The notes under the pieces were generated by a model. That model had not been told where the DNA came from. It did no database searches and worked only from the letters and a program-made list of their open reading frames with translations. The position numbers were made by a program, and so were the translations under genes. Shown here piece after piece: positions 8,501-13,600 of a stretch of 64,000 bases of DNA (the first letter of the stretch is position 1; every line of letters starts with the position of its first letter). Source of the stretch: Solea solea. Its lineage: Eukaryota > Chordata > Actinopteri > Pleuronectiformes > Soleidae. The stretch covers positions 14,963,381 through 15,027,380 of the forward strand of contig NC_081136.1 of assembly GCF_958295425.1 (NCBI RefSeq), given 5' to 3'.

Positions 8501-10606
8501 GACCTTATATGTAAAGCTCCAAACTAATCTGGACGCTTTCTGTAAAATTAAATGGGCTTTACATTTTCCTAAAGAAAAGGACTGGCATAATTTCCACGGA
8601 CTAACTCAAAGAGAAGTGGTTTTACAAAAGATAACAAGAAGATTAAAGCGTGTGCCATGGAAGATATTATTGCTGACTGCAAATATATCAACGTGATAAT
8701 CAAGGGATTGTTTATTTACCAAAAGAGCAAAAATGACCTGATCTAAATTCTAGGATGATGCACTTGCATGCACAACAATGACGTTTTACATTTTGTGTCT
8801 TTGTCTGCAAAAAAGACAGCAAGTGGACAAATGATAGTGGCAAAAATCGTAAAGGTCACAGAGAAAGGCTACACTGAAAGTTGAGCAATGGTGAACAATT
8901 TATCTTTATCCCTTCGAGGATTCAAGAAAGTCCCTTACTTCCATAGTTTCTCTGTCTAGTCTCATCTTTTATCTAAATATTTGATATTTCTGTCATTTGT
9001 TTAACAAAAGTCTTCAGGTTTGCACCACAGTCTGTCAGAACAAGGTAACAGCATTAATATTTAAAATAAATCCTACATGTGTTTCTGTTGCAATTTGAGT
9101 TCTCAGGCACAGACTTGTGCAGATGATAACAACAAATCTATGACAGATATTAATGGCGCCAAGTGAATGTACTTCACTTGGAACAAGTGACTATGACTGC
9201 CTAAACTGGGATTATAGTGACAACAAACCTAACCTGAGATTAAGGCTGAAAACTGAGCTAGGCTGATAACAGCAGGAGAAGATATTAAAACATGTCAGCG
9301 CTAAAGACAGACTTACCACAGCAACCTTGGCCGGGAAACCCATGACGTCCCTCCAGGCATAGCAGAGGATGTGCGGCAGATAGAGGACAAAGTAGATGAG
9401 GCCGCCACACGCCGCTGCTAAGTTGGCCTTGGAGAAGAAGACGCTAATGAAGAAGCACTGAGTGATGGTGACCACACAGAACACCAGCAGGAAGACAAAG
9501 ATTACTGAGGGGTCGCTGTACTGCAGCACTTTCCCGTACTGTGTCAAAAGAAATAAAATAAAAGATGGGGGAAAAAAAACAAACATGTAAACATAATTCA
9601 TATAAATCACACACCAACATGCAGAGAAATATTTTAGGTTGGTTGAAAAGCCAAGCAAACAGAGAAACATTAAGACTATTTGATTATTGATTAGTTGGAA
9701 GACAACACAGGCAGAGTAAAAGGTGTTTGAAACTGGTCAAAAAACATTTGATAATTTGCAAAAAAAAAAACATTTTTCGCATGGACTCATTTTTTTTAAA
9801 ATATATAATCTGAAGTCATTAAACATGTCACTCTTTTATTCTGCCTGCTTGAAAGAGAACCGTTCTCTAATTTTAGAGAGTTACTCCTGAATCCACCCAT
9901 TCACCCACATTTCACCATGACACTGTCTTCACTCAGCTTAATTCACTGTAAGATAATGATGCCAATAAAGTGGATGCTATTATGACCAAAGAACCATTAC
10001 ATGATACTGTATGAATCTTTCTCATCTTTCTCCTAAATTTACACAGGCTAAATGAACAACTGCCATTATTTTTGAACAGAGGTCCCTTTGGAAACTGCAG
10101 ACACTTTGGTGGCCAGAACTCTCCAAAAGTAGTAGTAAAAGGTTCTCCTTCAAAGACTGTTCAATCATTCTAAAATCACCTTTAGTATGAGGGCAAGGAA
10201 GAGAGCACTTAAAGCAAGTGGAACGACACTGGACACTGCCCAGCTCAACCAATAGATGGCACTTTTCAGGCCCATGATCCTCACGGTCTCCTTCAGCCTA
10301 GCCTCTTTCTCTGCAACAATGCTCTTTACGATCATGGCCACTGAGTAGATCCAAGCTAACGTCATGTATAAGGGGAGGGAGCGTGCCAGAGACCGGAGGA
10401 ACCTGAAGGATTGAGGAGCCAGACCAGTTAAAACAATCAATCCACGCAGTATTAATCACAATGCCACATGTTATCAAATTGTAATCGCATTTCTTTGGAG
10501 ATGCATTTGATAAATACAGTATATGTCATTTTCCCACCACCACTGCGCTGGGTTGGAGTGGGTCGGGCAAAAGACACCAAAGAAGGCACCATTATAAATC
10601 CCTCCA

Positions 10607-10639
<33 letters not shown>

Positions 10640-13600
10640 ACTATAGTTAATTTTTACCTTTTACCTGTTCAAGTTATCAACATTTTTTCTGCTCGCACAT
10701 AGAAATCAACACACACACACGCATATCATCCGACATCTTGTCAGACAGAGGTGCTTGAGGTTTAACACTTCACAATGCAATGATCTTGGATCGGTTATGT
10801 GTCATTGTTATTATTTATTTTTATTCTTGCATGAATTTATGATTGATGAGGTGTCAATAGCTGTCTCCCACCTGTGGTCTCCGGCACTGTCACTTGAGTT
10901 CCTTTAACATTGCTGCTGCATGTGTTGCAAAACACAACACATTCATCAAATTTTAATGACCGACAGCTAGCACGGCAAGACATTTCGGAAGGTGCTTTCA
11001 CGCTGTCAAAACAAGGAGAGTCTGTTTGGATGAGGCACACGGTAGCAGCGATGGGTATTGATCACCACTGATCTGTGTTATTTACACGGAGTTCTTGTCA
11101 CACACACCTGAATTGAGGAGGTTTCAGATGGGAGCCAAATATGGGAACAGTGTAAATACATTTGCCTGGTTCCACATAATGAATGCATTGCCTCCTTCAT
11201 AATGAAAGAGGAAATATGTGTAAATTGGCTGAGGACTCAGGTGCAGGTGACAAAACTGGTTGTTGTCACACCTAATCCACATACAGCCTTATGATAATTA
11301 CCATTTGATTTGCTATTATTATTAATGTGCCGAAAATGGCTGTGAAATTATCATTTAGAATGGGCCTGTGATTTGAATACACATTGTACTTGCAGTGGCT
11401 CCTCCAAGGCACTCGACTAACTCAATTTATTGTTATTAATGTTTACAAATTGTCGATGGCTTGCAAACACATTAGGCGGAAGGGAAATTACATTTCATCC
11501 AGCTGTTCAAATATCAGTTGTTTATTTACCAGCCACATTTTCAAATTAAACTGCAAAAATTGATTAGGCCGATCTAAATTAACCAATCCTTTTAGGTTTC
11601 ATTAATGCTTACAAAACAATAAGTTGTTCGAGGATGTGCTCTGTCTGACGAAACTCTCTTTCTATATTATACAGTATGTCATGAGGGGTGCAGCTTTTTT
11701 TGAAAATCGTGCGCTTATATACTCATATTAGCTAAATAAGAAAAATCTTAAACATACTAATACACTTACTGAGCTTTCGCCATTGTCTTCAGCCCCTAGT
11801 GTATCTTGTTTTTGATGAGTATGTGTTTAATGGGTGTTGAAATATTCAGTACAATATTCAGCACAAAGCAAAACATATTTGAACACTAAAATTGGAAAAT
11901 GAAAGGAATAGAAAACAGGAATATCAAACCACAAACTAAAATAAGGTAAAATAATATAGAGGTAATTAATTTTCAGTACCAAATATTCACTTGGCTTCTT
12001 GGTGTACAAGGCACAGAGGATGAGGTGATGCTATTCAAAGATATATAAACAAAATACTACTGGTGTGGTTTAATTAAACTTAATTACGCATTTGGCTGCA
12101 TGCTTAATTAATTAGCCCAGGAAGGCTGATTTAAAGAATCAGAAGTAATGATTTGATTCTGTGTTCTGTAATTGGTTATGATTAACAACAGCATGAATAC
12201 CAAAACACAAAGCATGAACAATTTGCCGCCATTAAATGACCCACATTTTCCATATTACTGCAAGAATATTTGCATTTTTGTTGTGCAAGTTTAATAAGTT
12301 AACAAGTTCAAATTTAGAACATGTGCATTATATTCTCATGCTGATGCTTTGTATTTTGATACTTTCCAGTATGGGACTCTTGTCTACTGACCTTAACCAA
12401 GATACTTATGAGCAAACAGGGAACTGTGAGCAGAATAATGTTCTCTGTGAAACTTGAAGACCAAAGGGCTCCATTTCGAATGCCAACAACACGCAGCACT
12501 TCCTTGAGCCTGAGCTCCTTCTCCAGCACCAGGCATTTGATGATCATGGACACAGAGTACATGAAGGCCAGCACCAGGAACATTGGAAACATGCTTCCAA
12601 TACTGGAAATGAAGCTGGATGTTGAAGAAAACAATCGAAAACATCAGGACTGCACATTTGCACAGAAAGGGAACTGTATGTTGAAAACATAGCAATTTTG
12701 GCCGATTAATTATTTAATATGCTGCCTAATGCATACAGTCTTTAAATTAACCCTCCCCTTAACCCTTAGTGCTCACACGACACAGATCAGTGCACCTTCG
12801 TAAATTGCCATGGGAATAATATGCCACACCTTATATGGACATCCTGGGGGTGTGTGTTTATAGGACACATTGTCTTATGTGATGTTGCCTTATCCTCCAT
12901 ATGAGGGTCACAGGGGGTGCTGTGCCAATCTCAGCTGACATAGGGTGATTGGCGGGGTAGATCCTGGACGGGTCGCCAGTCCATCTCAGGGCCACATACA
13001 GACAGACAACCATCCACTCACACTTATGGCCAATTTAGAGTGTCCATTTTACCTAATCCCCATATAGCATGTTTTTGGACTGTGAGGCAGTAGCGATGAT
13101 TTTGCAGAAGTCACAAAAAAAACTTTTTTCTTTTATGCTTGTTTGTAAAAAATGAGGAGGTATTTCCAAATTTCACAAATTTCAAAAAAATTCTGCTGTG
13201 TTTAAATAATTGGTGAAAATTTCATCAGATTGCCTATAGGCTGTGCTCAAAAAAAGAATGTAAGACACTATATTGCACATTCTTATAGCCTCTGTATATA
13301 CTTTTTAACATAGTAATGGAAATGCTCTGTGCTCTAAGGGTTAAATACTTGTTGTTGTTCAAACTATTTTGGCAAAATGTTGATTGGATGTAATGGTCAG
13401 TTTAGGTTTGTGGTGCTGTTGAACAGAACTGCATTAGACAGATTGTTGCCTCATAAATTGGGGAAGACAAAATGATGACAGATGATAGTGACGGGTCTCT
13501 CTCTCGTTCGCTATACATGACATGTAGAGATTACAATTACAAATTACAGTGTGTTATTGCAAATTGGATTACGAACTGATATACAGTGTGTACTCACTTT

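Follow-up and report, generated by a model that had tools for sequence, protein, structure and literature searches.

We describe here two homologous versions of exon 14 in an ABCA1-type transporter gene of the sole Solea solea, found on the minus strand of a 64,000-nt stretch (C3:14963381-15027380; the window) of the 642-Mb genome of this fish. We are confident that the two, called 14A (12392..12614) and 14B (10180..10402), are a homologous pair of alternative exons in a teleost gene, likely spliced one-or-the-other, and likely altering how the transporter holds its lipid. With the helices placed by homology, the swap would replace the second transmembrane helix (TM2), the intracellular helix behind it and the third transmembrane helix (TM3). 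Splicing of 14B would give an ABCA1-type pump; splicing of 14A would give a pump that is missing an arginine at the luminal end of TM2, the one with which ABCA4 holds the lipid phosphate, and the lipid preference of the two pumps would thus differ. Exclusion would come about by a regulated splice choice combined with decay of the products that contain both exons or neither, both of which are frameshifted; crowding or incompatible splice sites would not be its cause.

A frame-locked pair of exons

The two exons are adjacent, each 223 nt long, enter and leave in the same phases, and each translates to 74 open residues flanked by AG and GT (acceptor CATCCAG and donor AAG/GTCAGT for 14A, CCTTCAG and AAG/GTGATT for 14B). 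Both had been proposed in an initial annotation of the window, and their coordinates, splice sites and minus-strand orientation were verified on the sequence. The upstream constitutive exon 13 (19195..19371, minus strand) ends in PYPCYVDD and an incomplete Val codon (two bases), with the donor CGT/gtgagta; the first base of 14A or of 14B alike completes this codon, and the junction residues are equal for both. The downstream constitutive exon 15 (9317..9538, minus strand) starts with YGKVLQYSDP. In-silico splicing leaves an open frame in 13-14A-15 as well as in 13-14B-15. When both exons are included, the frame ends at a TAG at 10298-10300, 35 codons into 14B and with many exons of the gene still to follow; when both are skipped, it ends at a TAA at 9502-9504. 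Both-in and both-out products of this gene are unproductive, and the two stops are exactly those that the annotation had given.

The two exons share 26 of 74 residues (35%), as given in the annotation and confirmed on recomputation; when one sequence was shuffled 10,000 times, no shuffle exceeded 18. At the nucleotide level 108 of 223 positions are identical, and agreement is highest at second codon positions (49 of 74, vs 30 at first and 29 at third positions), as expected under conservation of the protein.

The gene in the window is an ABCA1-type transporter with ABCA architecture. The protein listed for this species, P0154 ('phospholipid-transporting ATPase ABCA1-like isoform X2 [Solea solea]'), carries an exon 14 that is 100% identical to 14B; its best match is ABCA1 (2,759 bits, vs 2,402 for ABCA4 and 2,186 for ABCA7), and it has two stretches each of ABC_tran and ABC2_membrane_3 and one of R1_ABCA1. 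The gene was modelled by tblastn and splice-site joining, which also placed exons 13 and 15, using as guide a human ABCA1 sequence; the model is incomplete in the first extracellular domain, where some exons are missing, and lacks a few exons in other parts. It spans approximately 120 kb, of which ~45 kb, the 5' part, lies inside the window (1..44751, minus strand, with the first coding exon modelled from 44751) and ~75 kb past position 1. The same genome has at least three further ABCA1/ABCA7-type genes (on C28, C29 and C33) and two of ABCA4 type (on C1) (L020-L029). The gene in the window is separate from these paralogs and more diverged, while being ABCA1-like; a gar relative, P0254, is 69.6% identical. 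The window gene is perhaps a lineage that was not retained in mammals.

Exon 14A across teleosts

Two kinds of search were used, one with 14A alone, the other with the whole in-silico protein, scoring only the 14A (or 14B) region. The search with 14A alone gave 41 proteins, 66-84% identical, nearly all of them short single-exon frames, plus Scleropages formosus and Cirrhinus mrigala. In the 40 short proteins that can be read to the exon end, the next residue is Val in 40/40, which is the GT donor read in frame, followed by Ser in 38; where the short frames reach upstream, Ser precedes the exon in 11/11, as an AG acceptor would give. Column identity among the short proteins is 0.78 in the exon (positions 20-74) vs 0.15-0.17 outside. 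Because the junction residues are kept and identity drops outside the exon, exon limits, splice sites and protein are conserved together.

With the whole protein as query and 14A scored, 108 of 116 candidates pass, giving 108 long proteins with 14A from 83 species by name (the species list was compiled by hand from the table), all of them teleosts as far as is known. Megalops and Paramormyrops, which have long 14A proteins, and Scleropages represent old teleost branches. The arrangement exon 13, 74 residues, exon 15 is found in 91 of the 108, including P0124 (Seriola), a hybrid with a 14B-like tail. The rest are 6 trimmed or divergent models and 11 in which a bridge or a cut connects pieces of 14A and 14B, since a plain join of 14A to 14B shifts the frame. 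The same search with 14B scored gave 152 of 197 candidates; our figures come from 120 of the 152, with 109 new ids, and among these matches listed 104 have 14B between exons 13 and 15, 3 hold both exons (P0153, P0155 and P0156, from two Dissostichus and Danionella) and 2 are other, one of which, P0181 (Melanotaenia), also holds a 14A piece.

The exchange is also seen in isoforms, which here are annotated models and not reads. For Sander vitreus, isoforms X2 (14A) and X1 (14B), of 2,235 residues and with source contigs equal in size, have 49 differences, every one of them in residues 614-685. X4 and X3 of the same species likewise differ in the exon block alone (2,234 residues), and X4 differs from X5 in two further small places. 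For Paralichthys olivaceus, X2 and X1 have 45 differences, every one in 628-699. Isoforms identical except for the exchanged block are thus present among the annotated models of two species. In addition, P0129 and P0151 are complete 6.7-kb frames with 14A on contigs of 7,351 and 7,470 nt, from the source 'lgn', read here as the Logan assemblies of public reads; as the gene covers ~120 kb, these contigs are best read as spliced transcripts. No 'lgn' entry with 14B is found among the matches listed for the 14B search (120 of 152).

When 18 chosen species with both exons are compared in pairs, the 14A sequences are on average 80.1% identical (minimum 59.5) and the 14B sequences 82.7% (minimum 66.2), and within these species 14A and 14B share 36.2% (32.4-41.9); the two exons are about equally conserved. 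The view of the initial annotation that the duplication is old and that both copies have been kept open agrees with the presence of 14A in many teleosts and its conservation at the protein level. Its proposal of one-or-the-other use is likewise strengthened, by the block-only isoform pairs in two species, the junction in 91 of 108 proteins (one of them the hybrid) and the two spliced-length contigs with 14A.

Public annotation at exon 14 of this gene is often unreliable. Models that join 14A and 14B pieces by a bridge, a cut or a hybrid exon are P0045, P0047, P0050, P0064, P0074, P0124, P0141, P0155 and P0181; P0155, from the zebrafish relative Danionella, carries a diverged 14A. P0243 is called a leucine-rich repeat protein and P0119 ABCA7, and P0074 also has reverse transcriptase domains. 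The isoforms are already deposited among public proteins, and none of the names inspected remarks on the exchange. Caution is warranted with fish ABCA1 models, since gene builders put 14A, 14B or impossible joins in the same gene.

The exchanged block and the origin of the pair

Exon 14 aligns without gaps to ABCA4 and ABCA1, with position 7 of the exon corresponding to R653 of ABCA4, and positions 3 and 4 to I649 and I650. In ABCA4, the phosphate of N-Ret-PE is bound by R653, a TM2 residue, and by R587 (PMC8501128; PMC8219669 describes this contact too). I649 and I650 contact acyl chains, TM2 is followed by an intracellular helix and then TM3, and in R653C substrate binding and transport are lost (PMC8501128). 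At position 7, arginine is found in 0/125 rows of 14A (G, T, A, S or N instead) and in 93/119 rows of 14B (S or N otherwise); at position 3, it is found in 3/125 rows of 14A vs 116/119 of 14B. These counts include several models per species, and 27 rows of 14A and one of 14B fall short of these positions. Positions 5, 14, 17, 22, 34, 39, 43, 50, 57, 65 and 66 separate 14A from 14B at >80% frequency on both sides, and the intracellular stretch EKELRLKE / EKEARLKE is conserved among exons of one kind.

As 14A never has R at position 7, the 14A isoform would present a lipid gate without the R653-type arginine in an otherwise unchanged pump. An effect of the swap on the substrate path and the coupling helix, which the annotation had also proposed, is inferred from homology. 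A single-sequence AlphaFold2 model of 14A, folded on its own, has helices at 2-43 and 48-73 with a mean pLDDT of 71; it fits a helical hairpin and is too weak for more. ABCA1 serves in cholesterol export and ABCA4 in the clearance of retinal lipid, and the basis of their substrate choice is unsettled. A conserved swap of TM2, the intracellular helix and TM3, with the rest of the protein unchanged, amounts to a natural chimera experiment: any differences between the two isoforms would trace lipid choice and coupling to a stretch of 74 residues.

The annotation described the pair as a tandem duplication. The part of this that stands is that the exons are adjacent and homologous; that 14A was copied from 14B is not established, as an exon tree puts 14A beside the exon of ABCA4. 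This tree has 74 columns and its topology tests were picked after the first tree. In it, a branch supported at 98/96 sets 14A and ABCA4 apart from the rest; a tree constrained to unite 14A and 14B is worse by 6.7 log units (approximately unbiased (AU) test, p 0.038), and the test does not reject a tree that joins 14A to the ABCA1 type (p 0.26). Two residues agree with the grouping: 14A has V14 and L34 in common with ABCA4, and the ABCA1 type has T14 and A34 instead. The stem leading to 14A measures 1.07 changes per column, which is long, and the tree program issued a warning on long branches. With post hoc tests, 74 columns and this long stem, the grouping of 14A with ABCA4 is suggestive only; because of it, a simple late copying of 14B seems doubtful.

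Three origins are left, and the evidence on them is suggestive only: a fast-diverged copy of 14B, a transfer from an abca4-like gene, and an old pair sorted among paralogs. The first, in the form of a plain tandem copy made in early teleosts that diverged fast, has in our judgment somewhat less than an even chance. It would explain the likeness to ABCA4 as long-branch attraction, for which the long stem, the warning and the few columns speak, and it fits the finding that five paralogs in this genome each have a single exon 14 in the 20-kb stretches fetched (C28, C29 and C33 of ABCA1/ABCA7 type, and the two ABCA4-type genes on C1). The support of 98/96, the poorer constrained tree and the shared V14 and L34 all count against it. 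This origin is compatible with one-or-the-other splicing of the pair. We regard it as unlikely that the pair predates the split of ABCA1 and ABCA4, with an ancestor that spliced either module, ABCA1 keeping the 14B kind, ABCA4 the 14A kind and one teleost gene both. If this were true, splicing would let one fish gene make a lipid gate of either the ABCA1 or the ABCA4 kind.

Proposed splice choice, competing readings and known systems

Four U12 donor and branch patterns gave no match from exon 13 through exon 15. Incompatibility of U2 and U12 sites was rejected as the mechanism of exclusion, as none of these four patterns lies beside either exon. Upstream of 14B, a branch-like TTAAC is found at 26 nt and the nearest AG at 90 nt. 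Steric exclusion of the OGDH kind was also rejected, since the intron between 14A and 14B (10403..12391, minus strand) is, at 1,989 nt, not short, and the nearest AG is only 90 nt upstream of 14B. Given the missing U12 sites and the roomy intron, what remains is a regulated choice with presumed decay of the frameshifted products.

Some leads on such a choice can be named. GCATG, an RBFOX-like motif, is found at 12594 (inside 14A), at 12341 and 12103 (51 and 289 nt downstream of the end of 14A) and at 9622; four such sites in 3.7 kb are near the expectation from base composition (estimated at ~2.5) and are a lead only. Further leads, and no more than that, are UG-rich repeats on the minus strand at 10602-10646 and 10692-10720, ~200-320 nt upstream of 14B, UG repeats being able to bind splicing repressors, and the donor of 14B, which looks weak by eye. 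A scan of 9539-13300 found ten inverted pairs of 14-23 nt with 77-88% complementarity; these are raw counts, and we make no claim of docking or selector sites.

Several points weigh against one-or-the-other splicing with a change of lipid hold. The isoform evidence rests on annotated models, mostly predictions and not reads, and ten other A/B pairs have, along with 44-50 differences in the exon block, others elsewhere, because those models differ in length. A contig of spliced length could in principle be a retrocopy. Zebrafish, salmonids, pike, cichlids, goby, pufferfish and gar are among the matches listed with 14B and not with 14A; the missing exons may be hidden by 90% clustering, or 14A may have been lost. 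The annotation had suggested looking for 14A in other fishes, gar among them: the exon is indeed widespread in teleosts, and gar belongs to those listed with 14B only. The arginine rule is one-sided, as 14B has R at position 7 in 78% only. For the sole itself, the listed protein carries 14B, and sole 14A is the longest end branch in the 14A group (0.27, vs 0.072 for sole 14B); use of 14A in this species is for these two reasons unproven and may be relaxed.

These last two observations would also fit a switch that is live in other teleosts and decaying or silent in the sole, the window then showing a relic. We think this improbable: sole 14A retains an intact frame and both splice sites, and P0154 is the one listed of a sole protein cluster with 4 members. 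Slightly less probable still is a mainly regulatory 14A, whose inclusion with 14B would shift the frame and send transcripts to degradation, tuning the amount of transporter and not its kind; the both-in stop, far ahead of the last exons, would suit this, as would the constant 74 residues in all 91 plain-junction proteins, yet a poison exon would be free to lose its protein sequence, and 14A is about as conserved as 14B and present in long open proteins and contigs. The reading of 14A as a pseudogene or a chance frame was rejected in view of its conservation, kept splice sites and long open proteins, and that of 14A as part of a separate gene in view of the junctions with exons 13 and 15. A genome search with 14A (E up to 0.001) gave no other match above 46%.

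Among the papers listed for alternative or mutually exclusive exons of ABCA1, whether of fishes or in general (mostly open-access, and for one query 20 of 48 matches), none describes such a switch in its title or abstract opening, in line with the statement of the annotation that it knew of none. MRP proteins are members of the ABCC subfamily. Mutually exclusive homologous exons are known as a class, also in other ABC transporters (PMC9741552, PMC4588896). They occur in ABCC9, mrp and mrp-1 (PMC9741552), which resemble the fish gene in being ABC transporters with such exons; those events are unrelated and belong to the ABCC subfamily, whereas the fish case concerns a lipid transporter of the ABCA subfamily and exchanges TM2, helix and TM3. 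A survey of 236 human homologous-exon events describes pairs that are, as here, adjacent, old, mostly in fishes and give isoforms differing in one region; its main text has ABC-words twice, both for ABCC9 in the passages shown, while the event of the sole type is seen in teleosts only, and the fish ABCA copies differ from the surveyed events in sharing only 35%. Exons 4a/4b of OGDH are likewise an old vertebrate mutually exclusive pair; exclusion there relies on branch points near the first donor in a short intron (PMC7969005), in contrast to the 1,989-nt intron and the AG 90 nt upstream of 14B in the fish gene. The exon with R653 of ABCA4 (PMC8501128, PMC8219669) is the one with which 14A groups in the tree and aligns without gaps, and unlike it 14A is without arginine at that position. 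We suggest that the likely exon switch described here is of a known kind, in a new place: an ABCA1-type gene.

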